Origin: Symbiodinium natans
Taxonomy: Eukaryota > Sar > Dinophyceae > Suessiales > Symbiodiniaceae
NCBI GenBank assembly: GCA_905221605.1
Contig: CAJNDS010002386.1
Span: forward strand, 372,001-436,000
Reading direction: 5' to 3'
DNA length: 64,000 bases
The notes below the pieces were generated by a model. The model worked only from the letters and a program-made list of their open reading frames with translations, was not told the DNA's origin and searched no databases. Both the position numbers and the translations under genes were made by a program. Numbering within the stretch: the stretch's first letter is position 1; each line of letters opens with the position of its first letter. Positions 27,158 to 47,434 of this stretch are shown here, piece by piece.

Positions 27158-27204
27158 CCTCCCTCTCGCTCTTCCCCTTCCCCCGCGCGCGCGCGCGCGC
27201 GCGC

Positions 27205-28787: not shown

Positions 28788-28876
28788 TCGGGCAGCGCGA
28801 GGTCTTCAAGGACCGAGCATTGGCGGACCGTTTAACCTGGGTCGTCGCGGGAATAGCCTTGCTAGCTGCGAAGCAG

Positions 28877-29209: not shown

Positions 29210-29225
29210 ACGCCACCTCACGGAT

Positions 29226-29849: not shown

Positions 29850-30740
29850 AACACCACTTTGAGGGCATCTTCGCCAAGGCCCCGGCAGCACAGGTGGAGG
29901 CGGCAATGGGGGCACTGAGACACAAGTTGAGGGGCATGTGCAAACACCAGCCCTGGAAACCCTTCACACAAGAAGAGTTGGAGGCCACATCAGAAAAATG
30001 GGGGAAGCGCAAAGCCACGGGTATGGATGGGGTGGCGCTGGAAGCTCTTCGTGAGCTCAAACAGCACCAGAACTGGCGGGGGAAATTGCAGTGGATGCTG
30101 GATGACTTGCTCAGGGGGGAGGTGGGGCGTGGGGTCACCGTGCTCATACCCAAAGTGCGCACACCGCAACGAGACCAATCACACTGTCCACCACCATGCT
30201 GAAGTGGATGTCACAGCTGCTCCTCAATAGGGGGGCGCACCACCTCACACCACTGACACAATTCCAATGGGCATGGAAAGGGAAGCAAGCGGAGGAGCTG
30301 CTGATGCTCATGCGCAAACTCACACGCACCGCCGAGGACTGGGGCATCCAGTTCTGGATAGTTAAGCTGGACATACGCAGCATTCGACAGTGTGCTGCAG
30401 CAGTCTCTGGGGGCCATGGTGGCGTCTTGGGTGGGGGAACAAGGGAAAATGCCTTGGGAAGCGCACGCGTGGCTCAGCCTGCTCCAGGCACAGCACATTC
30501 AGGTGGCGGCGGGGGGGGAGCTGGTGGATGTCAGGCAAACCACGGGAGTAAGACAAGGGCACCAGATTCGCCGCTGTTGTTTTCGGCACTCATAGGGCGC
30601 ATACTCCAGCTATGCCTCCCACCACTTCCCCCCAAAGGGGAAGCACACCAGCGAGCACCAGAGTGCCCGACAACCGGGGGGGCCTTCATGGATGATACCT
30701 ACCTTTGGGACACGGACCCCGACAGGTTGCAAGCCGTCCG
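29850..30740 (+). pseudogene. Reverse transcriptase remnant of a LINE
   Basis: Ordered RT landmarks are spread over frames: KRKATGMDGVALEALRELKQ near 30010, GRGVTVLIPKVRTPQ near 30128, LTQFQWAWKGKQ near 30256, KLDIR at 30364, TTGVRQGHQIRR near 30543, SPLLFSALIGRILQ near 30570, and the catalytic box FMDDTYLWDTD near 30688 (the family's [FY]xDD with both Asp kept). Frame changes between these blocks show that the enzyme is not encodable from this copy. After the DD box the thumb and later domains are missing. Confidence 0.8.
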
Positions 30741-32366
30741 CCGTGAGAGAGGCGTCCGACCCAACCGGCGGGGGCACTCACACGCCCGCAACAGTGCAGG
30801 CAGCGCAGCCGCAGCAGCACCCACAACACCCAGCAGACCCGATCCACCAGGCGACGCAACCACCACCACAGAAGCAAAAGCCGCCGCCGAAGCAACCACC
30901 ACCAAAGCAGCCGCCACCACGCTCACAACAGCAGCTGCCAGCGAGCAGCGGAGATGCGCGGCAACAAGCGAGCATCCAACCACAGCCGCCCCTGCCACCA
31001 CAACCACAACAAGGATCCCCAGCAGCAACCGCGGGGGACAAGCAGCTGCAGCAGGGGCCAGGCGGAGCATACCAGAACACGGGGGCCAAGCAGGACGGCA
31101 GCGGTGGCAGTAGCAGCAGCAGCAGCAGCGGGAGCAGCGGGGGGGCAGGACACACAAAAGGATGAGGAACCGAGCTGAAAAAGCTTGGCAGCGGAAGGAG
31201 GGGGGCCGACGCAGGAGACACACAGCCCACTGACTGGGCAGAACTGCTCAAACAGACACCTCAGGCGCCCCAGCACCCAGCAACCAACGCAGGACGGACA
31301 AGGAGGGAGCAAGCAGGACACAGCAGCGCAGGCAGCGCACGAGCAGCGACAGCAGATGAGGGAAGCGACAGCAGAGGAGGATGACAGGCACAACGAAGGA
31401 GGGGCCATAGCAGAAGCAGAAGCCCCACATGCCAGCGGAGGAGTCGTACCAGGCTCCAAACAAGATACAGCAGACAGAGCCAGATACGAGGAGAGGCTCG
31501 CAGCCGAAGCAACACAGCGCCCAGGGAGCACCCTGAAGGAACTCCGAGCACCCTCACCCCGAGGAGCGCCCGCTCCAAAACCAAGCCGAAAAAGCAGCAC
31601 AATCACAGAAGACGGCTCCGAGACCCATTGGAGTAGCAGTGACCACAGCAGCAGCAGCCAGTCAGGAGGACCTCAAGAGCAGGACGATGTGGGGCTGGGG
31701 AGGAAGAGGATTGGAGTAGTATGGACGGACCTCCGATAGTCCCCATGCTCCCAGAATCGCATCTTGGTGTCAGGGGCCAAGCGATGTGGACCCTACGCAT
31801 CAGGCCGAGCAACGAAAGAGTTTTTAGGGGGCACAGGGTGGTCCAGCGCGCGGAGGCCACACCGCAACACACACAACAGGCAGGGAGGGGGTTGCCGTTG
31901 CCCACAAAGCTAGAGGGGGAACTACGCAAGCTGCGGGGGCATGACACCTGGATACTTGTGGTCACCCACATTGACCATGAAGCGGGGGCAGCAGCAGCAG
32001 CAGCCCTAGCAGATGCGGCAGGCAAGCCACAGCAGAGCGCCACACCACTCCACATCGGGGACTTTGCCAGGCTCGACCCCGATGTGCCGCCGGTGGGGCG
32101 GCGCATACAGCCCTCAGTCGTAACCAGGCTCCCAGCACAGGGCGAAGACGCAGAACAACAGGAGGGGGGGGGCAGGAGGAGGGGACAAGACCGCGGTCAC
32201 CACCACCACCTCCGCCGCCATCACCACCACATGAGGAGGAGGTGGACAGGACGGAGCTCATGCAAACCACGCGTGGAGGAACACGGCCAGCACCATCACC
32301 ACCAACACCACCTCCACCACCGCCGCCAACACCAACACCACCACCGCCACCACCACCACCACCACC
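30741..32366 (+). pseudogene. Low-complexity C-terminal region of the LINE
   Basis: Pro/Gln/Thr/Ser-rich frames (KQPPPKQPPPRSQQQ) are followed from about 31721 by a more ordered segment (RKLRGHDTWILVVTHIDHE) and finally a His-rich CAC run. No known domain is recognised. The frame 31721-32842 continues without a stop into the viral ATPase fragment, making a chimeric open frame whose His-rich part is only microsatellite translation. Confidence 0.4.
32196..32366. repeat. (CAC)n-type microsatellite at the LINE/virus junction
   Basis: CACCACCACCAC words with CGC interruptions. Base composition switches abruptly from GC-rich to AT-rich immediately after it. Confidence 0.9.
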
Positions 32367-32373
32367 GCTTCAA

Positions 32374-32842
32374 ACCTTCTGATTTGCACAATATTTTAGA
32401 CAAACAAAAGAAAGTAATTGAATACCAAAAGAAAAACAATGAAAAGAATTTGTTCAGTATATGCGTAGTCATTGATGATCACAGTGACGACCCAAAATTT
32501 ATACGATATTCAAATATGCTACACGGTTTATTTACAAGGGGAAGACATCAAGCGGTGTCTTGCCTCCTCTCTTTACAGAAGTATTCCTCAACAGCTCCAA
32601 TTTGTAGGTTAAATGCCAGTTCTTTATATATTTTCAAACTTAAAAACATGACCGAAGTCAATAGTTTTATAGATGAGAATAGTGCCCTCGTAGATAAGAA
32701 AACATTATACGATATGTATCAACAGGCTGTAAACGATGCTCCCTATTCATTCTTTTATATAAACTGTAATAGTCAAGACCTTAATAGAACATTTTATATT
32801 AGATTTGAAAAAGAGTTTATTATTGATGATGAAGATATTTAA
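32374..32842 (+). pseudogene. Packaging ATPase (FtsK/HerA-A32 type), C-terminal fragment
   Basis: About 155 residues of a DNA-packaging ATPase. Walker B is ICVVIDDHSDDP (two acidic residues after a hydrophobic strand), followed by LFTRGRHQAVSCLLSLQKY and APICRLNASSLYIF, the sensor/arginine-finger-like stretch conserved in ATPases of Polinton-like viruses and virophages. The Walker A loop and everything before it are missing. The upstream frame is LINE and CAC-repeat sequence, joined without a stop. In an intact virus this enzyme pumps DNA into the capsid; this copy cannot hydrolyse ATP. Ends with DEDI and TAA at 32840-32842, 33 bp before the next gene. Confidence 0.8.
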
Positions 32843-32875
32843 AGAATAAATTAAAATAGATGCTTATAGCCATAA

Positions 32876-33530
32876 ATGGACTATCAGAATGGCAAGATCT
32901 ACTGTGTAAGAAACTCTATCACTGATGATATATATGTCGGCTCAAGTTGTCAGCCGTTATACAGGCGGTTAAGTTGGCATAAATCAAGTTTGAATAAGAA
33001 AGGAAAACAACACTTACCGCTATACATCAAGATGAAAGAACACGGTAAAGAAAATTTTTTATTGAGCTATTGGAAAACTACCCATGTAATACTAAAGAAG
33101 AGTTAAGAGCCAAAGAGGGTGAATACATTCGGAAAATATCCACACTTAATACATATATCGCAGGTAGAACTCTACAAGAAAGACTACCGCAAAAGTATGA
33201 ATATAAAAGCAAGATAGAATAAATAATCCCGAAAAATACAAAGTTATAGATCGTGCAAAGTATGAAAAGCATAAGCAAAATATATTAAAAGAGCGAAAGC
33301 ATATTATGAGTTAAAAAAGGATGAAATCAACGGAAACAAGAAAGAACGTATAAACCATTGTATATGTGGTTCTGTTTATCGTATTAATGTGATAAGAGCC
33401 AACACGAAAGGACCCAAAAGCACCAAGAATATTTGAAAGACCAAGCAAACAAAGAACACACCGAAGAATTCTTGAAACACATTCAGCCAGATTATTTATC
33501 ATATTTTTTAGATTTTATTATTTATCATTA
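32876..33530 (+). pseudogene. GIY-YIG homing-type endonuclease, frameshifted
   Basis: Begins MDYQNGKIYCVRNSITDD. The catalytic module is recognisable: GKIY (GIY position), IYVGSS (YIG position), Arg in LYRRLSWHK and Glu in HGKENF. The frame breaks in a TTTTTT run at about 33055-33060. The expected continuation (IELLENYPC, then STLNTYIAGRTLQERL) is in another frame up to 33222, and a zinc-ribbon-like tail (INHCICGSVY) plus a helical end (HIQPDYLSYF) follow after further breaks. Such nucleases are common in algal giant viruses and Polinton-like viruses, where they may act as selfish elements or in replication. At least two frameshifts make this copy inactive as read. Confidence 0.8.
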
Positions 33531-33743
33531 AAATAAACTCGGATTACAACAATGTAAATGAGTAAAACCAAAGCAGGGGCATTTCTTTTTCTTTTGCAGT
33601 GCCTCTACTTTCTTCTCTTCTTGTTCAAGTTTTGCTAATAAATCTTTCATCGCTTTTAATAAAATATCAGTTTCAGGTATTTCTTTGCTTTTCTGTTTTA
33701 TTAATTCCATACATGCGGCATATTCAGTCTGAAAATCTGTCAT
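33528..33743 (-). CDS. Small coiled-coil viral protein
   Basis: 71 residues starting MTDFQTEYAACMELIKQKSK. Residues 15-55 are heptad-like (LLKAMKDLLAKLEQEEKKVEALQ), followed by a Cys/His-containing tail (CPCFGFTHLHCC). ATG follows AATAATATATA closely, like other genes of the element. It lies head-to-tail after the fibre gene on the minus strand. No family recognised; a fibre-associated or regulatory role is only a guess. Confidence 0.5.
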   Translation of the reverse strand: MTDFQTEYAACMELIKQKSKEIPETDILLKAMKDLLAKLEQEEKKVEALQKKKKCPCFGFTHLHCCNPSLF

Positions 33744-33763
33744 TATATATTATTATTTAGATT

Positions 33764-36152
33764 TTAATCTTTACTTTTCGCTTTAGGTTTTGCTTTTGTT
33801 TTTGGTGATGTTTCACCCTTCAATTTCTTAACCTCCTTTTCTAAATCTTCTACTTGCTTTTGTAACTGTTGCACAGCCCCCCACAATACAACTGCTGTTT
33901 TATTATACGCTAATAATTTCATGCCATCATCATTATAATATATTATGTTGTCCCATTCTCTTGGCATTTTGGCGTCTTTTATATCATCTGCTATAAATCC
34001 AATATGGCTTTTTCTGTCTTCATCGTTAACAAAATTATCTGTTTTAGGTTTAATACATTTGACTGCTTTATAACATTCTTAAATATTTACTTCTTTAACG
34101 TTTTCTTTTAATTTTGAGTCTGATGTTTCTGTTAAAGCAACACACGTTAAATTTCCTCCAATATCAGCGTTATTAGTTGTAGTAAAGAAACCATAAACAT
34201 CAACACCTGTGTTTGTGGCGGCTAATCTTGATAAATTAGTATTGCTTAATCAAATCAATCCATCATCGTCTGATTATTAATTAACACTCTTTGTTGTCCT
34301 GAAACGTCAGTATTTGTAAGTTCCAGTTGCCCAACTAAAGTTACTTTTCCGTCTGCTAATTGTATTTCTGGTGTGCTACTTTCTAAACCCATTATTAAAT
34401 TCATTTCTCCCGCTTGATCTCCATTTCTGATATATAACTTATACTGAGTATCTAATACTTCTCTAAACTCTGATGAATTTTGGAACTTCATTTTTCCCCA
34501 AGTTCTTAAATCTGCTTCCGCTGTTAAATTACCAATGCTATTAAATGTTAAATTATTTGGAACTGCCCAATTTAATGTAATTCCGTTAGTGTCATTCAAT
34601 TGGACTGCAATAGTGGCAGTTGTTGGATCGGTTGTTCTATTTGATTGTAATGAAAAGTTAATCTCTTCTGTTGATATTACATTTCATGAATTATTAGCAT
34701 CGATACGCTGAAATATTCTACCTGAATTATTAACATAAATATCTCCGTTAAGTGTTGATGTATTTTGAAACGATGCTGTCCCGCCGAAATTTGCATTTCC
34801 ACCCGATACATTTAGTTTATTTGCACCTTGGATAACTCCAATACCTAAACTTAAACAATAAACGCCATTACCATTAGCAGTATTCAATAAAAGTAATGAA
34901 GAACTGTCGTTGCTTGCGTTATAAGCATTAATATTAAATGAATTAAATTTCAAATACCCTTGTGCATTTTTAACTGTCATAACATTAGAAGCGCCCGTTG
35001 TATGTTTATAAAATGTTAATCCATTAGTATCATTAATATTAAAACTTTCACCATCAAAATTTAAATCATTTGTTAAATCTAAATTAACATCCACTTTTAA
35101 ATTTTGTCTAACAATAGCACTATCAACAACATCTATTGTATAACCGCCTGTTAATGTTTCTGCCCCACTATCTACTAATAATGAATGTGATTTAACATAT
35201 TGATTAGCACTACTATTTAAATGTAAAATCCTACCTGTATCACCAACTGAATTCTAACAATCAATATTATCATTATTAAATGTACTATAATTATCAGTAT
35301 TTCTAACGGTAAATGATAAATTAGCATCTGCTGTATTTTCTACAACAAAACCACCTGTTGGTGTTTCTATTTTACCACTCATTTTATACCCTGCATTATT
35401 ATTTGATAAATCTAATTGTTTAATGGCGTCGTCTGGTGTATTATTACAAAATATTTTATCACCTTGTAAAGTTATATAACTCGTCGCGTTTTTAAACTCT
35501 GCTAAAACTTTATCACCTCCTCCTGTTTGATTGCTAAAGAATAATCCTTCTACTGGTGATATATTTATAGTTGAATTGTTTAATGTTAATCCGCTATGAA
35601 TAACAGTTGGGGCACTACAATCAATTATAGGATTGGCGCTAAATCTATCAGTAAAATCTGATTTTGGAACTCGTAGATCTAATAAATTATCAATTTCTGT
35701 ATCTGTGTAACCGCCAGATCCAGCCCCCGCTAGTAATGTATCTACCTCGCCCTTGTTATAATAATTGGTTGCCAGTTGCGTGTTAGTTTGAAAATTAGTT
35801 GATAAATTTGTATCAATCTCACTTTTATTATAATAATGAACCCCTAATTTGGCATTAGTTTGGTAATTAGTTGATAAATTTGTATCTATTTGGGTTGATG
35901 TGGAATAATTATTAAGTGTTGAATCAATCTCTGTTTTATTATAAGAATTCGTGGCTAGCGCGGCGTTAGTTTGATAATTGTTAGTTAAATCAGTATTCAG
36001 AACATCAATAGCGTCAGTGTTTGATTGTATTTCTACTGCGTTGGTTGTGATGTCTTCACTTGTTGCGTATAGTTGCGATAATTCCGTCCCTTCTAAATGA
36101 AACTTATCTGCATTTACGGTTTGCAGCCTGTTAAAGTAACTGGAACATTCAT
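33764..36152 (-). pseudogene. Fibre/spike protein with YNK-EID repeats and S74 chaperone domain
   Basis: A ~795-codon gene starting MNVPVTLTG at 36152, broken by an early frameshift and in-frame stops: TAG near 35256, TGA at 34684-34686 and TAA near 34082. Residues ~60-165 carry repeats of the type TNYQTNAKLGVHYYNKSEID, the phage tail-fibre YYNK-x-E-[IV]-D repeat. The middle is beta-rich with many Asn/Thr/Gly (TNDLNFDGESFNINDTNG). The C-terminus is a peptidase S74 (endosialidase-type) intramolecular chaperone: SDSKLKENVKEV, KSHIGFIADDIKDA, then LLAYNKTAVVLWGAVQQL and a terminal coiled coil. Such domains trimerise fibres and then cleave themselves off at the Ser. In the virion it would be a receptor-binding spike. 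It is the longest gene of the element and the most damaged. Confidence 0.8.
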
Positions 36153-36198
36153 TAGTAAATATTATTTAATTAGATAGTAATATTTTCGAATGTTTTAA

Positions 36199-36399
36199 TT
36201 AAGTATGAACCATTGGTGTATCTGCCATAATTTCAAGAATATTTGAACTGACTAGGCATGTTGTAATTTCTTCAATTGCTTCTTCTGTTCCTGTTAAATT
36301 AGCATTAGTTCCACGAATATTTAATGTTAATAATGCACCAAGTTTAGAATTTACCCCAGTTAAATAATTTTGATCCATCTTTTGGAAATTAATACCCAT
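36199..36399 (-). CDS. Small hypothetical viral protein
   Basis: 66 residues starting MGINFQKMDQNYLTGVNSK. It overlaps the last 11 bases of the capsid gene, suggesting co-transcription with it. No helix or motif clearly identifies it. It sits between capsid and fibre genes, so a small structural or accessory role is plausible but unproven. Confidence 0.5.
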   Translation of the reverse strand: MGINFQKMDQNYLTGVNSKLGALLTLNIRGTNANLTGTEEAIEEITTCLVSSNILEIMADTPMVHT

Positions 36400-37720
36400 A
36401 ATAAATTTTTTTTGCTCTGTATTGATTATATTTAATGCTCATACTATCTTGATCGGGATTGAGTAAAGATACAAATCTACGAAGATAATACATATGCTCA
36501 CTTAATGAAGAAGAGGCAACTTCTGGATATCGTTTATTACAAAGTAAAACATCAAAAGCTAAATCTAAATTTTTATTAGCGTATCCATAACCAACTTCAT
36601 TACCAGTTGCCCCCGTTCCATTAGAGAAAACGGTGTAATTAATCATCGGATTGTAAAAATAGTTCCATTTTTTGAAAACGTAACGGTCAAATCGTGATTC
36701 ATTATTCATACTGAATATACCTTCTGTTCTTGGCTTACGATAAAGTGTAACAAACATGCCATCTAAACGAGTAGCAGATTTAACAACATTAAGATTAATT
36801 TCACCTGTTCCATTTGCTATTGTTTGACTTGTCATGTGATATGATTTATATAAAATTTTCATTGAACCACCGCTTAATAGTCCCTCCGTGTGTTTTTCTG
36901 AAACTTTTGGATCTAAAACAGCGATATCCGCTTTCAGTGCTAGTGAATTCAATTCCCAATCTACTCCAGTATTACCTTCCGTGAAAAAATAATTTTTGGC
37001 ATCGGTATTTGTTCCACCTGAAGCAACTGGCACAATAATCGGATTAGCATCATTAACAAGGGTTAATTCAATTTCTAAACCAGAAGCATGGCGAAGAGGC
37101 AAATAATACCCAGAATTCAAGAAGCCTGAACAACACTGATGCCCAAGTCGCACCCATGTTTGAGGGTAAATACCTGCCATCGTGTGCCTTGTGAATTTCT
37201 GTCGTAAATCACCGAACTTGTTCCAGTTTCCAGCACCTGCCACATCTTCTTGTAATCCAGTAGCATATGTATGTGCAAGATCATCATCGTATCTCGGATT
37301 CATACCACTTTCAATGTCATCTAAATCACGAGCGTCAGGGGATTTGAAGCAATTCCAAATCTCACAGAATCTATTGTAATCTGTTATATCTTCTACAATC
37401 TGCCCACCAACCATAACTCGTAGTCGTGAGAAGCATGAATGTAGTTGTCCAATAAATCTTCAATATCTTGTTGTTCCCGCTTCATTGTTTTTAAGATTAG
37501 CAAGAATACGAATACTTGATAAATCTAAATAAGAATTAGTGTCAGAGGCAGGTAAATGAAATTTAATTTGTCTATTACCCGCCCCTACTGAATAGATATT
37601 TGAACCAGATGGGGCGTAGGATACTTGACGTCTATCAATACCATATCTGCCGAGGTTCTCAATGCCATATTCAAAACCACCAACAACATTTGGCTCACTT
37701 TCAGCAATAATATTTTCCAT
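36389..37720 (-). pseudogene. Major capsid protein (double jelly-roll), one in-frame TGA
   Basis: 443 codons from MENIIAESEPNVVGGFEYGI. N-terminal landmarks are YAPSGSNIYSVGAGNRQIKF, LPASDTNSYLDLSSIRI, and RLRVMVGGQIVEDITDYNRF, a pattern seen in capsid proteins of Polinton-like viruses (SG-Ni, s-xx-ldl, R-l-x-v-x-x-GGQ-v-E). LPLRHASGLEIELTLVNDAN is the inter-jelly-roll strand region, and the C-terminus (SMSIKYNQYRAKKIYYGY) is typical. A single TGA at 37460-37462 interrupts an otherwise continuous frame, between TTRY and RFIGQL. It could be a nonsense mutation (from Trp or Arg), an assembly error or, least likely, a read-through codon. The ATG follows AATATATACTA closely. Confidence 0.85.
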
Positions 37721-37751
37721 TAGTATATATTATTTATTAGATAAAAAATTA

Positions 37752-37948
37752 TTATTTTTTTAATTTGTTTAAACTTTTTAAATTTAAATTAATATCTTTA
37801 TTATTCTTAATATTTGGTTTATTAATTGTTTCATTGACATTTATTTTATTCTCTCCTTCTTCAACAATTTCTCTAATCATATCATAACCTTTTGTTTAAT
37901 AATTCTTTTTGGCTTTACCTCTTGTTGTTTCTTATTTTGCTTTGCTAT
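37752..37948 (-). pseudogene. Small Lys-rich viral protein, frameshifted
   Basis: A 42-codon frame starts MIREIVEEGENKINVNE at 37880 and ends at 37752. Immediately upstream the same strand reads AKQNKKQQEVKPKRIIKQK in another frame, and the two would join if one A were present in the short A run near 37891. The true gene was probably ~65 residues. No family recognised. Confidence 0.4.
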
Positions 37949-37986
37949 AATTATATTATATAATATATTACATATTTTTTTACTGG

Positions 37987-38670
37987 TTAAGTATTATTAG
38001 CAGTATTAAATTCACTTCTACCTTGATCAAAGAAATTAAAATAACTGTGTGGGTTTAATGTTCCTTGTGGAACTGTTATACTACCTGTATCCAAAACAGC
38101 CACTGGATCTAACGCCGTCCTGAAATTTAACTGATTGTCATCTCTGGCAGTTGATGAAGGTAAAGATGTAATAGGACTTGAATATGAATTTTCAGCATAT
38201 TTATCATTAGAATTCTTATTTAAAACTTTAACAACAGCCGATCCAAGACTGTGTCCAACCAAACGCGTAACCTCTGGTGAAGTTTGAAGCATTTCGTAAG
38301 CATCTTTATATCGTTCGCTTTCTTCAAGTCTGTTAAACGGAATATGAAAAATATCACTAAAAATATCGTTTGCTAAATTTTTACCAGAAGTGCCACTTAC
38401 ATATAATGTATTACCAAATTTATATAGTCCTGTTCCAGTTCTATAACTTTTATACAAACCTTCAGCGTCACTAATTAAATTAACATTATTGATATTATTA
38501 TTATCTCTCATATGTTTTTGAATCTTTTGTATTATTCTTTCCCTATCGCTATTTACTTGTGACGTTGTGGGCGTTTCTGTTCTTTGTGTAGATGGTGGCG
38601 GTCTTCTGTTGCCTCTTGCTAAATTTGGGTAACGTTGCCCTCTTATTAACAGTTCTAAATCTTTCCGCAT
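37987..38670 (-). CDS. Class 3 lipase-like protein of the virus
   Basis: 227 residues, intact. An Arg/Pro/Thr-rich N-terminus (to ~45) precedes an alpha/beta-hydrolase core. The nucleophile elbow is RLVGHSLGSAVV (GxSxG, Ser near residue 143), preceded by YVSGTSGKNLANDIFSD, matching the [FY]-x-G-T strand of class 3 lipases. The likely acid is in RTALDPVAVLD and the likely His in LNPHSYFNF near the C-terminus, giving a complete Ser-Asp-His set. Lipase genes are known from several Polinton-like viruses and could help membrane penetration or release; that role is inferred. It shares a divergent 52 bp promoter with the minor capsid gene. Confidence 0.75.
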   Translation of the reverse strand: MRKDLELLIRGQRYPNLARGNRRPPPSTQRTETPTTSQVNSDRERIIQKIQKHMRDNNNINNVNLISDAEGLYKSYRTGTGLYKFGNTLYVSGTSGKNLANDIFSDIFHIPFNRLEESERYKDAYEMLQTSPEVTRLVGHSLGSAVVKVLNKNSNDKYAENSYSSPITSLPSSTARDDNQLNFRTALDPVAVLDTGSITVPQGTLNPHSYFNFFDQGRSEFNTANNT

Positions 38671-38722
38671 ATTATACTACTATTTTATAAAATATTAAAA
38701 ATCTAATTAAATATATACATTA
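38671..38722. promoter_or_regulatory. Divergent viral promoter region
   Basis: 52 bp, almost entirely A/T, between the start codons of the minus-strand lipase and plus-strand minor capsid genes. It contains ATATATACATTA just before the plus-strand ATG and TAGTAGTATAAT just before the minus-strand ATG. Confidence 0.5.
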
Positions 38723-39655
38723 ATGAGTAGTAGAGTTTTAAAATACAAAAAGGTATTCGTAGATAGTGGCAGAAGACTAACCTCATCTAATTCATCAACT
38801 GATTTTGAAATTGGATTACAAGAAAATTTTGAATGTCCCGCTAATACTCAATGTTATGTAACAGAAATAGCAATACCTAATTCATTTTATACAGTAGAAG
38901 AGGGTCATAATGATTTTTTATATATTGAATTAGAAAATGCAGTTACACCAGTTGATAGTTTTTATGAAAAACGATCACTACAATTAGATCAGGGCATTTA
39001 TACCCCATTGGGTTTAATTGAGCACATAATAACAAAGGCAAATAACTTATATGCTGGAGCTGGTATAACTAATTTATTTACTGGTTCTTATGAAGAGAAA
39101 CTTAACATTTATAAAATTCAAGCTAAACTTAATTACAAAGCGAAATTTTTAACTGATGATGACATATATGAAACAACCGATTCTGTATGGAGCATAGTAT
39201 TTAGAGGGGATAAGAGAATACGTCCCCAATCAATAAATAAAATGATAGGTAATTATTCTGCGACTCAAACTGTTATAACAACTAGCAGTTTATGGACGGG
39301 CTTCCCTATTGATCTCAACCCGTATAGGATACTATATATATCTTGCCCTGAATTATCAAATTATAATCAACATATACCAACTGAGTATTCTTCAAGTATA
39401 ATTAAAAAAGTTTTAGTAAATGCTGGACAAGGCGGTCAGATAACGGACGAATACCCTCTGGTTAGTGACTATGTTGATGTAAGCCATAAAAATCTTAAAA
39501 GGTTGCATTTCAGAATTGTTGATGATACTACTAAAGTTGTGAATTTGCATGGTGTTGCTATTTCCTTCTCATTGATTTTTCAAAAATCAAGCATTGACCA
39601 AGATAAAAAACTAAAGCAACAACAATATCTAAAATCATTGAACCAACCAATTTAA
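38723..39655 (+). CDS. Minor capsid (penton-like) protein
   Basis: 310 residues, intact. The N-terminus (KVFVDSGRRLTSSNSSTDFE, then FECPANTQCYVTEIAIPNSF) matches the pattern of penton/minor capsid proteins of Polinton-like viruses: a F-x-V-D-S strand, an S-x-S/T-x-F strand, then a V-x-E-I-x-I-P-N-S strand. ITKANNLYAGAGITNLF and VNLHGVAISFSLIF are later beta/helix elements of a probable single jelly roll. It would form the five-fold vertices of the capsid. It has no stop or frameshift, unlike most neighbours. It is the first gene of the plus-strand set and ends 78 bp before the next. Confidence 0.7.
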   Translation: MSSRVLKYKKVFVDSGRRLTSSNSSTDFEIGLQENFECPANTQCYVTEIAIPNSFYTVEEGHNDFLYIELENAVTPVDSFYEKRSLQLDQGIYTPLGLIEHIITKANNLYAGAGITNLFTGSYEEKLNIYKIQAKLNYKAKFLTDDDIYETTDSVWSIVFRGDKRIRPQSINKMIGNYSATQTVITTSSLWTGFPIDLNPYRILYISCPELSNYNQHIPTEYSSSIIKKVLVNAGQGGQITDEYPLVSDYVDVSHKNLKRLHFRIVDDTTKVVNLHGVAISFSLIFQKSSIDQDKKLKQQQYLKSLNQPI

Positions 39656-39733
39656 AAACTGCCCTAACCAATTATTAATAATATTATTTCTATTTTACAT
39701 AAAAATAGAAATAATATAAACTATTATATATAA

Positions 39734-40257
39734 ATGTCAGCCGATGAAGTTAATACAACTATTGAAGCAGATACAGAAGTAAAGAATGAAGAAGCGCCAG
39801 AAATAACTGTTGAACAACCAGCTGAAGCAGTTGAAAACAAAGTAGTGACACCAAAAGCAAAACCAAAGGCAACACCAAAACCGGAACCTAAAGAAGTATC
39901 CCCTGGTGATTTCCAAACTAGGGCAGAAAGGATTAAACATAAAAAAAAGTTAAATGTGAAGGCTGTGATGCTGTTTTGAATCTTAAAACTTACAGATGTA
40001 CCCACAAATGTAAGGGCAAGTTAGAAGATAAGGAAATTAAACCAAAGCCAAAAGCAAAAGTCAAAGCAGTAGCAGTAAAGCCACTGACCAATTCATCGCC
40101 AATAAATGATATTACCAATATTGAAGAAAGAATACAACAATATCAACATCAACAACCAGTTCAAGCACCGCCAGAACCAAAACCATTTAGCATACAAGAT
40201 TACTACAAACAATTAAGGCAAGACGCTGTTAATAGAAAAAAAAGCAGAGGTGGATAA
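39734..40257 (+). pseudogene. Lys/Pro/Glu-rich viral protein with Cys-His cluster, frameshifted
   Basis: Starts MSADEVNTTIEADTEVKNE (ATG right after TATTATATATAA). The first ~65 residues are acidic then Lys/Pro-rich (KAKPKATPKPEPKE). An eight-A run near 39940-39948 causes a frame change. In the second frame the text reads CEGCDAVLNLKTYRCTHKC, a compact Cys-x-x-Cys...Cys-x-x-x-Cys metal-binding candidate, then another Lys/Ala/Pro stretch and PFSIQDYYKQLRQDAVNRKK to a stop at 40255-40257. One original ~174-residue protein is likely. Basic tails suggest DNA binding in the virion. Confidence 0.6.
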
Positions 40258-40340
40258 TCTTACTAAAAATATTTTTAAAGGTTGTCGTGCCAAAAAAAGA
40301 TTTTAGTAAATAATAATAAAAATATCACTAGTAATATATA

Positions 40341-40676
40341 ATGATTTCGCCATACAAAAGACCTAAAATGAAAAAGAAAATGAGGGGAGCAATTCATGCA
40401 GTATTACCATTAAGTTATACTAGTTCAGGTTATTCACCGTTTGAATTCCATGATCCAACTTATTTACAGCATTTACGAGAAATGTTAAAATCACAAGAGA
40501 CTAAAGAATTTACAAGAGCACAACGTGAGGCATTAATAGAACAGTCAAAGCGTGATAATTACCGTCAAGAATTGTTAAGGCTTCAAAATGAAATTCCTAG
40601 ATATTCTACAGGTCACCCAACAAAAGCACATTTAGAACAAAGAACTAAAGAACTTGAAAATTTAACTAAAATGTAA
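40341..40676 (+). CDS. Hypothetical viral protein, 111 aa
   Basis: MISPYKRPKMKKKMRGAIHA, a very basic start, then a His/Pro/Tyr-containing segment (YSPFEFHDPTYLQHLREMLK) and an amphipathic helical C-terminus. ATG follows AGTAATATATA. No family recognised; a basic virion core or packaging role is possible. Confidence 0.5.
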   Translation: MISPYKRPKMKKKMRGAIHAVLPLSYTSSGYSPFEFHDPTYLQHLREMLKSQETKEFTRAQREALIEQSKRDNYRQELLRLQNEIPRYSTGHPTKAHLEQRTKELENLTKM

Positions 40677-40705
40677 AAACTAAATTCTAATTTTAAATAT
40701 ATATT

Positions 40706-41690
40706 ATGATGAAACGATTAAGTCCTAATGCTTATGGATTACGAAGGCAATTAGCTTATGAAGAAGTGGCGGGGATGCTTGATAATTCTAAATTATTTAC
40801 CCCTTTACCAGAATACCCTTATACAGAATATAAAGATAGTTTTGAAGGTAGTTATTTTGATAATATAACTGAAAGAATAGATTTACTTAAAGACCAACAA
40901 CAGAGAATTCTTGACAGGCAAATGACTGAAGCAATGTTAAGAAAAGAAGCAACAAGTAGAGGTGTTGATATTAATGTTTTAAGAGCACAAACAGCACCGA
41001 CTTATTATGATATTGGAGATCAAGGACGGACTGAAGAAAGCGAAATGATGAGCGTAATGAGTTTTGGGAGACAAAGGGAAGGCATTGAAGAAAGGATGAG
41101 AGATTTTGAAGAACAAGAAGCAAGAGATAGAGAACAATCAAGGTCAAGCGTATCTAGAATAATTGGTGGAGGTTTGAATACAGCATTTCACGGATTAACA
41201 AGGCAATTTCTGGGATCAAGTGGATCAGCACCTGCTACTGGATCAAGACTAGAAAGAGAAAGTGGAGTGGCAAGTGAATCAATACCCCCTGTAGAACCAA
41301 GATTAGAAGGGCAAAGTGGAGTAGCAAGTGAAACAGTGCAACCTTCCCAACAAGAAGTCCAAGCAGTCGGCAGAACGAGAATGACAAGTGATTATTCAGA
41401 AAAAGATGCAGATGACTTACCTTTTGCACGAATTTCAGAATTCTTTAAATCAGTAATAAGAAATAATGAAGTATCTGAAAGGGGCAAAGAAATGTATTCT
41501 GAAATAGAAGAAGACAGAAGATTAAGCAGAAAGCCAAATAGTCAAACATTAGAACTCATAAGAAGTTTATTTAAAAAAATTTCAAGACACTGAAAAGATA
41601 CCCAAACAAATGAGAAGAAATGTTTCAAGATATACTCAAGATCTAATCACTCGTGGAGGTATGCGAAGTTCAGGAAGTAGAAGCACATAA
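40706..41690 (+). pseudogene. Hypothetical viral protein with internal duplication, C-terminal frameshift
   Basis: The main frame (40706-41593, 295 codons) begins MMKRLSPNAYGLRRQLAYEE. It is helix-rich (ERIDLLKDQQQRILDRQMTE; GIEERMRDFEEQEARDREQS). A ~54 bp duplication at 41246-41334 gives two copies of RLExxSGVASEsxxP. A seven-A run at about 41575-41582 appears to have lost or gained a base: after it another frame continues FQDTEKIPKQMRRNVSRY to a basic end at 41690. ATG follows AAATATATATT. Function unknown; the composition suits a virion-internal protein. Confidence 0.5.
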
Positions 41691-41711
41691 AAATATCTAA
41701 CATAAAAGAGT

Positions 41712-42421
41712 ATGTTTCACGCTAGATACAAAAAGAAACGGATAGTGAAAGATGATGATGATTTATTACTGCCTCATTATTATAATCCTTATCATTCAGG
41801 ATATTATAGAAGCCCGTTTAAATCTAGCAATTATTATTTTAGAGATGCTACAACACAAAAAGATTATCAAATACAGAATCACGATATATTTCCACATATG
41901 TATGATATTATTGATGCCCATGCCGATTTAATTAAAACTAATCGTGAAAATAAAGGCGATGCGATTTTACAAACAATACAATATATGTTTAAGAAGAATC
42001 AAACCCCATACAGTTCAATAGCATCATCTAAAAAGAGTAGCAGTAGCAGTAGTAGCGATGACAGCAAACCTTCACCAAATCAACAATTACTAAATGATTT
42101 AGCAACCGTAGCAAGAATAGGAGGTAAAGCATTGTATTACGGTGGCAAAGGTGTTTATAGAGGAATTAAAGCAGGTGTGGATACTTATAATTGGTTAAAC
42201 GAAGAAGAAGGTGAAGAAGTAAAACCACCTATGAATGAAGAAGTATTTAATAGAACTCAACGAATAGTAAGACGAGGGGCAAGTCGTAGCAGATCACCAG
42301 AAATTACTAGAAGAGAAAGAAGTAGAATGACGAAGAACCATCAGGCAGTAATGACGCTATGAGAATAATTAGAAGAGGAGCGCCACGAAGTCGCAGTAAT
42401 ACACCACCTAAAAGAAAGTAA
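41712..42421 (+). pseudogene. Ser/Arg-rich hypothetical viral protein, C-terminal frameshift
   Basis: MFHARYKKKRIVKDDDDLLL begins a 216-codon frame ending at 42362. Notable segments are a Tyr/His-rich stretch (HYYNPYHSGYYRSPFKSSNY), a Ser run (SSKKSSSSSSSDD), a Gly/Tyr helix (IGGKALYYGGKGVYRGIKAG) and Arg-Ser repeats (RRGASRSRSPEITRRERS). Near 42327 one base seems missing; a second frame then gives MRIIRRGAPRSRSNTPPKRK to a stop at 42419-42421. The two Arg-Ser tails resemble each other (RRGAxRSRS), suggesting duplication. An RS-type basic tail could bind nucleic acid. Confidence 0.5.
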
Positions 42422-42593
42422 TCATAATAATATTAAACATCTAAATAATACTATTATGACTGGAGCAGTTGCTGATGTAAATAAAAATACCCAAATTTGA
42501 ATGTAAAATTAAGTATTAAAAGAATAGATTTTCATAGATCACATTAAACTGTCTAAAATAGTATTAAAGAAATATTTTTATATAATATAAATA
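42422..42593. other. AT-rich viral spacer
   Basis: Contains a 14-codon frame starting MTGAVADVNK at 42456 that ends in TGA. It is probably the remnant of a small gene. The last 30 bases (TTTTTATATAATATAAATA) act as the upstream region of the next gene. Confidence 0.4.
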
Positions 42594-42917
42594 ATGACTG
42601 AAACAAATAAAACAGATATTGATGATGAAAATATTACAACAAGTGAAGAAGAAATAAGAATTAATTTAAGAAAGCAAATAAAAGAATTACGGCAACAATT
42701 GAAAGACCATTCAACATATAAGGATAAACTCCCAAAAGATCCAGAATATTTTAAAAAGTATCAAGCAAAATTATACAAAGAAAATTTATGTGAAAGAGTG
42801 CCGTGCGAATTATGCGGAAGATTACAAACATTGAAACATATGAAACATCATCAGGGGTTGCCAGTTTGTTTAAAAAATAGGAAAGTTCCTAATTTCATGT
42901 CTAAAACAATGTTTTAA
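42594..42917 (+). CDS. Coiled-coil/zinc-finger viral protein
   Basis: 107 residues, intact. Acidic N-terminus (TDIDDENITTSEEEIRINLR), a short coiled coil (LRKQIKELRQQLKDH), then CERVPCELCGRLQTLKHMKH-H-x6-C with Cys-x-x-Cys and His-x-x-x-His spacing, a C2H2-like zinc-binding site. Proteins of this build are frequent in Polinton-like viruses and algal large viruses. A transcription or packaging role is possible. ATG follows TATATAATATAAATA. Confidence 0.65.
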   Translation: MTETNKTDIDDENITTSEEEIRINLRKQIKELRQQLKDHSTYKDKLPKDPEYFKKYQAKLYKENLCERVPCELCGRLQTLKHMKHHQGLPVCLKNRKVPNFMSKTMF

Positions 42918-42924
42918 AAATGTA

Positions 42925-42966
42925 TTAAAGAATTATATTATAATATTATATATATATATATATTAT
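42925..42966. repeat. (TA)n tract between viral genes
   Basis: TTATATTATAATATTATATATATATATAT, within an intergenic stretch before the replication-protein relic. Confidence 0.85.
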
Positions 42967-42975
42967 ACTGTTATC

Positions 42976-43890
42976 AACTGACTTTGGCGAGACTTTCAAC
43001 TTTAATTTAAAACCATTCAAACTACAAAACAATATTAAATGTAAAGATATTATAAGTTTAAGTATCTTTAATACAATTAAATATGATAAAAATTTAAGCA
43101 GTGAAAATAAACATAAATTGAAATATTATTATGAAAATTTTATTAAAAATAATGGTATTTATGAATATAAATTAGGTAAAGATGAATAATATAATTATGG
43201 CAGATTATCAGTAGAAGATAATAATGGATTACAAGATTTAGAAAGAAAAATAAGAAATTCAATTTTTCGAACTGGTGATAATAAAAGTTTTACTCATACT
43301 GATTTAGATATTCAAAATTCAGTTCCTACAATATTATATAATTTTCTTTACAACAATAAAGCAGAAGTATTAGATTACGTGGAAAGCAGAATAGCGCGAG
43401 CACGACATGAAGCACCATACGAAAGCGATTTAGTAGCAAGTAGAATATTAAATACAGTTAAACCATATACAACCTTTAAAAAAGTTTTGTAACATATTTA
43501 ACTGAATATATTCACAAACGAGAAGAAATATTTAATAAAGTTATTAGTTATTATAATGTCAATAAAGAACAAGCAAAGAAGTTATTTATTAGTATATTAA
43601 ACGGTGGAACTTATAACGGATGGTTCAAGCAAGTAAAACAGGCTGATAATATAAGGGATACTGACATAAAGAGTATTAGAAATTTCTTGTTAGTTTTGAA
43701 GATGAACAGAAAATGATTACAGACATTATAGAAGATAATCGGCATTTACAACATTTAAAAACTGGCATTACATCAGATAAACTAAATCAAATAACAAATT
43801 TAGAAACGAAAATTAATGATTTAAAAGAAGAAAATAAGAAACGAGGTAGGGGTTTCCTTCCTCCCGACCTTCCTACTATACCTTTTTAAA
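42976..43890 (+). pseudogene. Replication protein remnant (TV-Pol / primase-like N-terminal part)
   Basis: No long frame survives, but adjoining frames give coherent text: TDFGETFNFNLKPF, a TAA near 43187, then YGRLSVEDNNGLQDLERKIR, HTDLDIQNSVPTILYNFLYN and VLDYVESR, then in another frame NKEQAKKLFISILNGGTYNG and finally ITNLETKINDLKEENKK. The order GRL...IR...D-x-D-I-x-N-x-x-P-T-I-L...Y-V-E-x-R...AKKLF-x-x-I-L-NGG matches replication proteins of Polinton-like viruses and virophages that carry a polymerase-like (TV-Pol) or primase module ahead of a helicase. The helicase part is absent; the frame ends with LPTIPF at about 43890. The precise family is uncertain. Confidence 0.45.
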
Positions 43891-43912
43891 ATTCAGGTAG
43901 CCAGTCACCACT

Positions 43913-43956
43913 CCACCACAGAATTATATAAGGTTATGGTTTATAGTTTGTGGTGG
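43913..43956. repeat. Inverted repeat CCACCACA / TGTGGTGG
   Basis: Perfect 8 bp arms separated by 28 bp, in the spacer after the replication relic. It may be a terminator-like hairpin or a leftover recombination site; function unknown. Confidence 0.5.
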
Positions 43957-44033
43957 CTCAAAAGTCGCCACAAAATATTTAATAATATGTTAAAAAGGTC
44001 TTAAAGAAATAATAACATATATTATTAATCAAA

Positions 44034-44375
44034 ATGGAAATTATTAATAAATATTATGATGAATTAAATAAACTACTGAGAGGCAACGGCGAGAAATTAG
44101 CGGATATATTCGTAAAGAGAGCCCAACACAAACATTTATTAGAAAAGTATAATAATACATTAAATGAAAATGATAAAATATTTTTTGATAATCATATGAC
44201 AGAAATTGAAGATGAATTTAATAAAATTAATAATGATATTGATAATTTAAAAGATCTTATTAATGATTTAGAAGAATTTTTTAATATTGAACACGATGAA
44301 GATAGAATGAAAGCAATATTTCACGGCGATATAAATGATGAAGAAGAAGAAGATGATGAAGATGGAAGAAAATGA
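44034..44375 (+). CDS. Acidic coiled-coil viral protein, 113 aa
   Basis: MEIINKYYDELNKLLRGNGE, then long heptad-like helices (HMTEIEDEFNKINNDIDNLK) and a strongly acidic end (NDEEEEDDEDGRK). Intact. It overlaps the next small frame by 14 bases. ATG follows CATATATTATTAATCAAA. No family recognised. Confidence 0.5.
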   Translation: MEIINKYYDELNKLLRGNGEKLADIFVKRAQHKHLLEKYNNTLNENDKIFFDNHMTEIEDEFNKINNDIDNLKDLINDLEEFFNIEHDEDRMKAIFHGDINDEEEEDDEDGRK

Positions 44376-44487
44376 TATTAATGGAAATATTAAAAATGAA
44401 TGGGAACTAAAAATGTCGATGATGAGAGCAGAACACAAAGAAGAAGAAACAAGAAGCGAAACACCAAGCGAAGAATTAATAATTTAA
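44362..44487 (+). CDS. Very small viral frame overlapping the previous gene
   Basis: 41 codons starting MEENDINGNIKNEWELKMSM, rich in Glu/Lys, ending SEELII. It is either a separate overlapping gene or the true C-terminus of the preceding protein after a frameshift. Support is only its composition and open frame. Confidence 0.3.
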   Translation: MEENDINGNIKNEWELKMSMMRAEHKEEETRSETPSEELII

Positions 44488-44544
44488 AATTATAAAATTA
44501 TTTTTTGGAAAATTCCTTGATATATATATACAGGAAAAATATTT

Positions 44545-44775
44545 TCTCGCCAAAATAATTTTCTTAAGTTTATTCAAAAATATTTAGGGCAAAATATTAA
44601 AATATTCAGGGCAAAATAGTTTTTTTATTACACTTATTCAAAAAATAATATTCTCGTGCGAAATTTTTTTTGATACTTATTGAAAAAATATTCAGGGCAA
44701 AAATATTAAAATATTCAGGGCAAAATAATTTTATTACACTTATTGAAAAAAAATATTTCAGGCGAAATCAAAAAT
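44545..44775. repeat. AT-rich tandem repeat near the viral right end
   Basis: Diverged copies built on ATATTCAGGGCAAAATA and TTACACTTATTGAAAAA, at about 44575-44620, 44640-44725 and 44730-44770. This is the last viral-type sequence before the G-rich host tract and could be a terminal or origin-type region. No matching copy exists at the truncated left end. Confidence 0.7.
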
Positions 44776-44825
44776 GGAAAAGGTGGAAAACTTTTTCTAC
44801 TAATTTTTATTGATATATGAACGGG

Positions 44826-45165
44826 TGATGGGCGGGTGGGCGTGTTGGGCGGGGGGGGGCGGGGGGCCGGGGCGGGTCCGGGCATGCATTGGAGCCCCTA
44901 AAACACTTCATTTCCAAGTAAAAGGTTAGGGGGGAGGTGGGGGGGCATGCACTGGAGGGGTGAGGGCGGGAAGGTGAAGGGGTGAGGGGGGGCGGGGTGG
45001 GTGGGCGGGGGGGAGCAAGGTAAAAGGTTGGGGGAAAAGGTGAAGGGGCGGAGGGGGTCGGGGGTGGGGCATGCCCTGAACCCAAGGTTGGGGGGTAAGG
45101 GGTGAGGGCGGGGGGGGGGGGGGGGGGGGGGGCGGGGGGGGGCGGCGGGGGGCGGGGGGGTCCGG
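44826..45165. repeat. G-rich tract (plus strand), G-quadruplex-prone
   Basis: Over 300 bp dominated by GGGG/GGGGC words, including uninterrupted runs of more than ten G near 45110-45131. It starts about 14 bp after the viral AT-rich sequence stops. The minus strand gives artefactual poly-Pro frames. Confidence 0.9.
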
Positions 45166-45344
45166 CATGCACTGCAGGCCCTCCCATTCCAGGCAAAAGA
45201 AGGGGGGCCGACTGCCTGTTCTCACAAGGCCTCGGCGGATTTGCCAAGCTCAATGTTTTAGCCTGCGCCTGTACCTGTGCCCGTCCTGTGCGTGCATGCG
45301 TGTGGGTGTATGTCCTATGTTCGTTGTTTGTGTGTGTCTGTGAG

Positions 45345-47331
45345 TCCGCGCAACACCCTGGTAGGTCTGCTAAAAGCACAAGAAGTGAGGCGCCCGGGGT
45401 TCCCACGGAGCGTGAACGCGAACCAATCTTGGCAATTGTTCCAACAATTTTTGAGCAAGGACTTCCAAACGATGCTACTCGATGATTTGGAAGAAGCAGA
45501 CCCAAGAGAACAAGGGACTGTGATGCTCAACAGCCAACATGCCGCGGAGATGAGGAGGATTCAAAGAGCGAGTTCACGCACACAAAGTTTTGGAAACCGC
45601 ATGTGGAGCTGGTCTGCGGCCACTTGGGAAGCCAAGGAGTCCTTCCTTTCGGCGTTCAATTTGAATGGCATGTTGCAGGAGAGGCAAGCTGCAAGAGATT
45701 CTAGATATGGCGACAGAAGCGAAACCTATCTGGATTCAATACATTCCTATGGAGTGGCCGATGGCAGTTTGCCCGGTGAGTTTCTTGCAGCTGATGTCGA
45801 GAGGGTGAGGTCCACGCGCCATCTCGCAATGGAAGCTGGAGTTTCGCAGGAGGCTTGGCAGAACATGGAGGACCAGGCGAACCAGGCCAACGAAAGCCAA
45901 CAGAAGGGGCAAGAATCGAAGGACACTAATTCAAACTCAGATCAAGACACCTCTTCTGCAGCGACATCTTTGCTGCGTCTTCTTGAAGCTTTTGTCCATG
46001 GCAAAAGAAGTACCCCTGCGCCTGATGACATCAGGATTCAGATTGCTGAGCTTCACAACGACGACTTAAAGCGGAGTGCCACTCGCCGCGAGGAGCTCGA
46101 GGATCTCCGTGACGCCACTCGATTGAACCAAATGGAGGACGAGCTCGTTTATGATTACTTTGCGCAAACAGGGGCCTGGCTCCAGTCCTTGGGATTGCTC
46201 GACAACTTGACATCCATGTCTCCGCTTTATCCAGAGCTATATCTGGCATTTCTAGGTCAGGCGAGGAGGCATCTGGACGAACTGGAGCAAGATGTGAGAT
46301 ACAAGTCTGGCACCTTGAACGACATGGATTTCGATGTCTTGGCCATGGATCTTGAGCGAGTGGCTTCCAACTTGACGCAATCAATTGTGACCCTCTTGTT
46401 CAACCAGTCTGCTCTCGACACGTTCGACACCGCCAAGGTCTTTATGGATGGTGCAGTAGTGAATCAGGCCATGGCTGCTTATGTCAAGCCAGACATTGTT
46501 TTGGATCAAGATGGCGGCCGTGATCGGCAGGGCTTGATGCGAGTTTACTGGACGCGAATCCAGATCCCATTTCGAGCGAAGGCTACTTGGACAGAAGAGG
46601 GCTTCGAGGAGGACTACGAGGCAAGCGTGGAGGCTCGCCGCTTGGCTCATGAATGGGCCTCGGTTGTGAAAGACATGCAAGATCGCCACACCAACTATTG
46701 GAAGGATGTCTCCATGGGCGACCCTTGGGAGATTCAGAAGTCTTTGGTCTCGGGATACATTTTCAGAATCCTGGACTCCAAGCAATCCTTGCTGAACAAC
46801 ACCATGGCGAGCTTGATTTACGTGAACATCCTGGTGGCAGGGTTCAGCTTCCTGTTCTTGGGCCCACGCCTGGGACTTCTGTTGGCTCCGTGCATCGCTT
46901 TGATGACCGTGGTCACCTTCGGCCTTTACGGCCTGCTTGGCTTCAAGATCAACCCGATCTTGTCCCTGTCCTTGCTCATTGCCTCGGGCACGACCATTGA
47001 CTTCGTCCTTCACTTCCTCGTGGCGGCTGCAGCCTGCACGCCCGCCAATCCCAAGATCCACATCTCAGGCTCCCAGCGCTACATTGTCGCAATGAAGAGC
47101 GCGGGTGTTGGCATCTTTGCTTCCTACGTTACCACATTAGTGGGCATCACGCCCATGGCCTTCGCAAAGCTGAGTTCCATCCGCGCGCTCTTCATGTCGT
47201 ATGTCATCAGCCTGAACGTCGGAGTCTTCTTTGGCCTGGTGTTCATCCCTCTGGTCTCCATCTACGTCTACGGCGTTGATCTTGCTCCACGAGGTACCAA
47301 AAAGAAAACCCAGAAGGCAAAGAGCTTCGAA
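45345..47331 (+). CDS. Patched/RND-family protein, C-terminal half (exon)
   Basis: About 660 codons continuing the second lumenal domain (QSWQLFQQFLSKDFQTMLLD, NMEDQANQANESQQ) and then five clustered membrane helices: IYVNILVAGFSFLFLGPRLG, LLLAPCIALMTVVTFGLYGL, ILSLSLLIASGTTIDFVLHF, VGIFASYVTTLVGITPMAFA, and ISLNVGVFFGLVFIPLVSIY. These correspond to helices 8-12 of Patched/NPC-type transporters. The GTTIDFVLH segment matches the family's second repeat. There is no plausible start ATG or signal before the domain, so this is not a free-standing gene. With the seven helices of 19.2-22.4 kb it makes the expected 12. The exon most likely ends GAA/GTGCAAG at 47331/47332. Confidence 0.8.
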
Positions 47332-47434
47332 GTGCAAGCCCCCGGCGCGCGTTTGGTCCAAAAAAGGGACTGAGGAGCCGCAAGGCTGAGCCGATGACTA
47401 AAAGTAGTGATGGAGCAGGAGCGCTTTTTTTCAG

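Follow-up and report, generated by a model that had tools for sequence, protein, structure and literature searches.

An AT-rich viral remnant in a predicted host intron

The window analysed here is a stretch of 64 kb, containing zero N, from contig CAJNDS010002386.1 of the dinoflagellate Symbiodinium natans (positions 372,001 to 436,000), and it holds the remnant of a Polinton-like virus (PLV). The remnant (32369..44819, no strand assigned, ~12.45 kb) is missing its left arm; its limits were taken from the GC profile, the alignment of copies and the right terminus. GC content per kilobase is 26-35% over 33001-45000 versus 52-64% within ~7 kb on either side, which bears out the AT-rich island, in sharp contrast to the surrounding DNA, described by an initial annotation made from the sequence alone. 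The island stands, but the edges given for it (32367..44812) have moved to 32369/32370 on the left and to 44819 on the right, the latter being also the terminus of a full copy found on another contig (C740).

What does the island encode? It begins inside a packaging ATPase gene, of which only the C-terminal 157 aa are left (32369..32839, + strand; PF04665, Pox_A32, E 9.5e-6, above the Pfam cut-off). A GIY-YIG nuclease gene with a broken frame follows (32876..33219, +; PF01541 at E 5.3e-7 on 32876-33103, above the cut-off), its reading appearing to resume in another frame from ~33049. On the opposite strand lies a fibre gene with an S74-type chaperone end (33767..36165, -), which is interrupted by three in-frame stops, shifts frame at least twice and gives a weak Peptidase_S74 match under the cut-off (E 0.027); its intact homologue in C740 matches the tail-fibre family phrog_1980 (E 1.9e-14). 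The major-capsid-type gene (36202..37729, -) contains a single in-frame stop and shifts frame close to its end. Its piece in the window is 94% identical in amino acids to the intact C740 gene, and the Capsid_N profile stays below the cut-off for both (E 0.01 and E 0.0034, respectively). Next comes an open, lipase-like open reading frame (ORF; 37990..38676, -), also compared with C740 by codons; the label 'lipase' is putative, taken from a GHSLG motif spotted by eye, and Pfam gave zero matches to this ORF. A conserved penton-type (minor capsid) ORF of 310 aa is also open (38723..39652, +). Four ORFs without assigned function (40335..42914, +) keep the same order as in C740 and are followed by a primase-helicase remnant in pieces, with its helicase domain missing (42944..43889, +); it resembles the N-terminal region of the primase-helicase ORF of full copies at 32-36% identity, with 33-36% to that of C740 for two segments, 43190-43489 and 43480-43713, and a genome search with the remnant DNA gave no further match. 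Nothing above the Pfam cut-off was found among these right-hand ORFs. The element closes with its right terminal inverted repeat (TIR; 43977..44819, +), which holds a shortened TIR ORF (44016-44372) and reads at its terminus GATATATG.

This copy is left-truncated, pseudogenised and dead: it is cut inside the ATPase and has stops in capsid and fibre, so the full virus implied by the initial annotation has to be given up. From the gene set listed there, ATPase and GIY-YIG are confirmed by Pfam, while capsid and fibre remain sub-threshold, the lipase is named by its motif and replication is represented by a helicase scrap only. Could the stops reflect an alternative genetic code? The mixture of TGA, TAG and TAA among the in-frame stops of capsid and fibre, together with the frame changes, argues against such a code, and the idea was rejected. 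Intact capsid, ATPase and fibre genes are present at other sites in the genome.

At the left junction, the virus abuts a (CCA)n tract (32287..32369, no strand, detected with TRF) that belongs to a GC-rich repeat. A relative of this GC-rich flank on contig C1986 runs on beyond (CCA)n into different GC-rich DNA; the window, unlike C1986, switches to the ATPase immediately after a common 'CCGCT'. Because the C1986 relative continues past the tract, the left junction breaks both the repeat and the virus. The left arm was probably lost by one deletion, spanning from the (CCA)n tract of the neighbouring repeat to the middle of the ATPase gene, and the further mutations of the window copy would have come after it. 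The 3' tail of a long interspersed nuclear element ending at (CCA)n was considered as the cause of the left edge and dismissed, since the C1986 relative passes the tract and a deletion fits better. Zero Pfam matches were obtained at E 0.01 among four ORFs of the GC-rich left flank.

The DNA on both sides belongs to one host gene. ORF 19196-22384 encodes a Patched sterol-sensing domain and a first group of membrane segments, and ORF 45262-47370 a second group; the latter has zero Pfam matches and zero blastp overlap with the former. The two are united by a protein of Effrenium voratum (P0086, 1783 aa), whose residues 74-1120 correspond to the left ORF and 1118-1769 to the right ORF, both at 72%. 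The N-terminal half of the Patched-like protein would thus be encoded by an exon at 19196..22355 (+; PF02460, E 8.1e-19) and the C-terminal half by an exon at 45365..47370 (+; P0086 alignment). Between them lies a predicted GC-AG intron of 23.0 kb (22356..45364, +), its ends placed from the P0086 alignment and the sequence, in which the island appears to sit. The claim of an insertion in a dinoflagellate nuclear gene is upheld, as both flanking ORFs are halves of one Patched-like protein. Is the junction real, or has the assembly joined viral or contaminant DNA to host DNA? Both edges are in or near low-complexity DNA (the (CCA)n tract and a G-rich stretch), but a random chimera is unlikely because the flanks are two halves of one gene; moreover, the window has no N, the right edge is a true element terminus, the island shows decay and sister copies are embedded in other host contigs. 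We regard an assembly artefact as highly improbable. The same intron also contains a 504-bp (CAA)n tract (23164-23667).

The complete element and its copies

The genome searched comprises 759,417,921 bases in 2543 contigs. The window capsid DNA (1026 bases) is matched at 94-95% over its whole length on contigs C740, C901, C2401 and C1218, and at 70-71% over 130-139 bases in six more places. C740 and C901 share stretches 99.4-100% identical and the same satellite flanks; they look like one insertion seen twice, which would leave four loci including the window. The capsids at the three other loci are 93-100% identical within the family. At the protein level, the C740 capsid matches five contigs at 94-100% (the window's included, and two of them carrying the same insertion), and because of these five matches the island is not a chance occurrence.

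C740 offers the complete picture. Its element (3234-23644, 20.4 kb) has inverted ends of 1,676 bp that are 99.2% identical; it combines TIRs with a size within the range of PLVs (14-40 kb), while the window copy retains one end only. The inverted ends of C2401 span at least 855 bp at 100%, adjoining a gap, and those of C1218 1,294 bp at 98.8% plus 183 bp at 97.8%; the right TIR of the window aligns with either inverted end of C740 and of C2401, and in part with those of C1218. C740 is inserted in a 1.58-kb tandem satellite (blastn identity of the repeat 98-100%), and comparison with an empty satellite unit reveals that 4 bp, GAAA, are duplicated, one additional base being present on the left side. 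Its genes are the TIR ORF, with a GIY-YIG domain, a 418-aa ORF, ATPase, GIY-YIG, fibre (814 aa), capsid, lipase-like, penton-type, several ORFs of unknown function and a primase-helicase. The ATPase has no Pfam match and is recognised as terminase phrog_2666 (E 1.4e-8). The 690-aa primase-helicase matches DUF5906 (E 4.8e-15) and phrog_1156 (E 1.1e-22), with matches to VapE-like proteins and phage primases. The 418-aa ORF, which by eye we take to be tyrosine-recombinase-like, is absent from the window copy and only 78% identical in C1218. The island is a copy of this low-copy PLV family, whose full copy is ~20 kb long with inverted terminal repeats.

Replacement of the packaging ATPase

Do the genes of these copies share one history? 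The capsids of C740, C2401, C1218 and the window piece are 93-100% identical, whereas their ATPases are 39-59% identical, that of the window having 59% amino acid identity to C740, 39% to C2401 and 39% to C1218. The opposite is found in C369, an element of a different capsid clade, whose ATPase is 96% identical to that of C740 and whose capsid is 38% identical (protein; 36% by tblastn). Their GIY-YIG proteins are only 30% identical, and in DNA the ATPase stretch agrees at 87-88% and the fibre at 84-87% over 1.6-1.8 kb. Hence one ATPase is common to elements of two capsid clades. In a tree of 11 capsids, forcing C740 and C369 together is rejected with an approximately unbiased (AU) p of 1.2e-97, and this result, with the 96% ATPase identity, carries the argument for exchange.

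Where are the limits of the replaced DNA? The backbone is mostly 92-99% identical among copies where aligned, C740 being covered to 73% by C1218, 62% by C2401 and 46% by the window. Within this largely similar backbone, the ATPase and the adjoining GIY-YIG gene are replaced as a block (in C740 coordinates, 8426-9900 versus C1218 and 8419-9901 versus C2401). Between C740 and C369, the common ATPase stretch stops at 9144, the start of the GIY-YIG ORF. C1218 retains the helicase (100% covered); in C2401 a different sequence has taken its place (0%). In a search of its own genome, with 147 of 423 candidates scored and 114 matches at E 1e-70, no relative of the C2401 ATPase exceeded 58%. Another count in this genome gave 427 ATPase candidates, of which 147 were scored. 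Four further loci (L053-L056), read in part, have ATPases 87-93% similar and are not counted as evidence of exchange. The ATPases also differ in a putative Walker-A-like stretch: it ends in GKG in C740 (L011, 8349-9122), C369, C1819, C1181, C2502 and C400, and in GKS or GKT at the same place in C2401, C1218 and the environmental contig L051 introduced below. As a separate observation, 17 loci (on C1213, C1276, C2213, C2220 and others) have the same ATPase score and a 293-aa ORF; two contigs carry pairs spaced by ~9 kb, and together these loci suggest that a second type of element has expanded recently.

Taken from sequence comparison, these data suggest that such viruses swap their motor gene as a cassette beside a GIY-YIG gene, different PLVs meeting in one nucleus having exchanged the ATPase/GIY-YIG block. 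What is the role of the nuclease? Nine loci were read between ATPase and fibre (window, C740, C1218, C2401, C369, C400, C1819, C1181 and C2502). A GIY-YIG gene lies there in eight of them, and all eight genes pass the Pfam cut-off. In C2502 the ATPase-fibre spacing is ~100 bases, without GIY-YIG between, and a partial GIY-like match occurs past the fibre, at the limit of the sequence read; in C369 a further GIY-YIG gene, its second, separates capsid from fibre. One possible mechanism, which we put forward tentatively, is that the GIY-YIG nuclease would have cleaved the DNA next to the ATPase gene and that subsequent repair on the genome of the other virus would have set the edges of the block, as free-standing homing endonucleases do in T4-type phages. 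The ATPase may then be an exchangeable cassette tied to a GIY-YIG homing endonuclease, letting distant capsid lineages swap motors, a proposal with somewhat less than an even chance of being right. Ordinary homologous or homeologous recombination, with the GIY-YIG gene merely travelling along with the ATPase, stands close to even odds: blocks without GIY-YIG (helicase, parts of the fibre) have been replaced as well, and Cafeteria virophages have several primase/helicase versions (PMC10945749). It is less at ease with the near-identical edges of the ATPase and GIY-YIG block in two near-full comparisons, with the C369 edge at the GIY-YIG start and with the C2502 junction of ATPase and fibre devoid of the gene.

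If the GIY-YIG-linked cassette holds, motor and capsid would not have a single common history in this class of viruses. The core morphogenesis module is described as capsid protein plus packaging ATPase (PMC4642659, PMC8547959); as their histories differ within one genome, trees combining both can mislead. The set of copies makes nuclease-driven exchange directly testable.

Selection and lifestyle

Has this family lived as a virus or as a transposon? The ratio of nonsynonymous to synonymous substitutions (dN/dS), computed with a Nei-Gojobori script, is 0.015 at dS 0.18 for the capsids of C740 and C2401, 0.08 for the two intact-copy pairs with C1218 and 0.19-0.26 for the three pairs with the window. 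The lipase-like ORF gives 0.08 at dS 0.17 between window and C740. The low values are consistent with divergence as a functional virus and the higher capsid ratio of the window with later decay. C740 and C2401 agree at 99% in their left arms and at ~96% in their capsid blocks, so parts of the element diverged at different times. The family may have circulated as a virus and integrated several times, probably by means of the element's own tyrosine-recombinase-like enzyme. A family that is now transposon-like only, making no virions and spreading its copies within the nucleus, would accommodate the several copies per genome and the inverted ends of C2401, identical over 855 bp, and such a lifestyle has been proposed for the PLV of Oxyrrhis (PMC12721341). 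We nevertheless find it unlikely: a capsid dN/dS of 0.015 at dS 0.18 places the protein under strong selection during divergence. In addition, a census with the C740 capsid protein, in which the best 85 of 403 candidates were scored, found five loci at 94-100%, 11 at 47-49% and 69 at 37-39% identity, and 81 of the 85 are without internal stop, though the scoring favours intact ones. Selection of this strength on the capsid suggests that the alga has been infected by viruses of this kind.

How firm is the whole? We assign a probability of about 0.8 to the combined reading, a truncated PLV copy together with exchange of the ATPase/GIY-YIG block among circulating PLVs. Several observations weigh against it. 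The two near-full copies cover no more than 62-73% of the C740 element, and replacement also affects the helicase, parts of the fibre, the ORFs of the TIRs and several ORFs without assigned function (including 4920-5893). The association with GIY-YIG is a correlation drawn from a small number of elements. The ATPase tree (10 rows), in which forcing C740, C2401 and C1218 together is weakly rejected (AU p 0.033), has two long branches meeting, and the tested groups were picked after the identities had been seen. The 418-aa ORF has no Pfam match above the cut-off and no PHROG match. Lastly, the penton-type ORF has a dN/dS of 0.28 between window and C740 at a low dS of 0.06, which we cannot account for by decay alone, and the counts of the capsid census are lower bounds that favour intact genes.

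Relation to known elements

To which class does the element belong? The PLV type named by the initial annotation is supported by the PF04665 ATPase and by the TIRs and size of the full copy; the conserved capsid-type and penton-type ORFs are putative double-jelly-roll and single-jelly-roll proteins, respectively. Profile searches, which it had proposed, succeeded for the ATPase, above the cut-off, and fell short for the other two, the capsid giving sub-threshold Capsid_N and the penton no Pfam match. At E 0.01, Capsid_N matches three of 32 capsid relatives, the match shown being below the cut-off, and a PDB sequence search with the capsid gave no match; a PDB search with the penton-type protein of the window returned nothing useful. 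Both the capsid-type and the penton-type genes have relatives in other elements. The penton-type ORF has seven homologues at 29-94% identity, and its identity to an ORF of the environmental contig L051 is 29%. In a collection of 5.8 billion proteins, 84 capsid relatives passed among 8000 scored candidates; three of them, proteins of F. kawagutii (Skav), share 41-42% identity with the capsid of C740.

A single-protein scan of viral contigs yielded 0 of 5 pattern matches confirmed, and an alignment scan 1 of 97, namely L051 (IMG/VR, 17.4 kb). This contig has penton-type, lipase-like, GIY-YIG, capsid, fibre-like and ATPase genes; its capsid is 29% identical in the best segment, and its putative lipase relative, assigned by position and by eye, has only sub-threshold hydrolase hits. 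Beside these it bears an rve integrase (E 6.4e-8) and an ORF of 1286 aa resembling, by eye only, a protein-primed DNA polymerase B (pPolB). Is the present family then a classical Polinton, defined by pPolB and rve integrase, or a true virophage (Maveriviricetes)? That L051 carries similar morphogenesis genes beside such replication genes speaks for it. We consider it very improbable, as no rve or pPolB match was found among the 20 window ORFs and the 10 and 9 C740 ORFs scanned, and the C740 replication gene is a DUF5906 primase-helicase; this judgement is made on replication and integrase genes. The comparison of L051 with this PLV family suggests that replication genes may have been exchanged on a deeper scale as well.

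The candidate status as a poorly described lineage needs correction: the lineage is not of a new kind, since dinoflagellate PLVs are already published (PMC10120064, PMC12721341). Bellas et al. (2023) described dinoflagellate PLV-type elements with 'Dino group' capsids, thousands of capsids in Polarella, and PLV- and virophage-type capsids from Symbiodinium-related genomes (PMC10120064). Their endogenous elements share dinoflagellate hosts, a capsid-type gene, TIRs and GC contrast with the present family; they are 15-30 kb long with a tyrosine recombinase or rve, the likeness being by description only. In the available part of that paper, exchange of the ATPase among elements within a single genome is not reported. 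OmPLV of Oxyrrhis marina is likewise an AT-rich endogenous dinoflagellate PLV with decayed copies, ATPase, GIY-YIG, recombinase and TIRs (PMC12721341). It differs in that its SF1 helicase is fused to pPolB, a minor capsid protein has not been recognised and target-site duplications are absent, whereas the present family has a DUF5906 primase-helicase, penton-type and lipase-like genes and, at the single site examined, a duplication of 4 bp. PLVs and the PgVV group share major and minor capsid proteins and ATPase and lack a protease, and subsets have a lipase, GIY-YIG or an OLV11-like tyrosine recombinase (Yutin et al. 2015, PMC4642659); unlike them, the present family is endogenous, intronic and mosaic within one host genome. 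Cafeteria virophages (endogenous mavirus-like elements, EMALEs) are endogenous and mosaic, with replication genes replaced within types and one type with exchanged capsid genes (PMC8547959, PMC10945749). EMALEs swap the primase/helicase or the capsid module, while in the present family ATPase and GIY-YIG move and the capsid block stays. In phages, homing-endonuclease islands place nuclease genes at exchange borders near essential genes (PMC10448857), but the present case concerns eukaryotic PLVs with predicted nucleases. Cryptophyte PLVs have homing endonucleases and capsid-polymerase incongruence (PMC12220804), Breviolum has Maverick repeats (PMC11071213) and a paper on Karenia brevis viruses names PLVs as well (PMC13037468). 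A literature search gave no report of an isolated PLV from Symbiodinium-related algae, and packaging-ATPase exchange tied to GIY-YIG was not found in the texts covered, including the available part of PMC11071308 (supplements excluded, subscription papers mostly outside). What is newer here is that packaging ATPases are exchanged in a mosaic fashion, which lay outside the reach of the initial annotation, and not the dinoflagellate PLV itself.

Other genes in the window

Upstream of the Patched-like gene lie a chlorophyll a/b-binding (light-harvesting) protein gene (13811-14872; PF00504, E 4.6e-35) and, after it, an RCC1-repeat ORF (15973-17340). Near the right end of the window, an ORF with an RNase H domain (61710-62417; PF00075, E 1.5e-9) is probably a retroelement remnant, and a COX1 fragment (62817-63332; PF00115, E 4.2e-23) on this nuclear contig is probably a nuclear copy of mitochondrial DNA.

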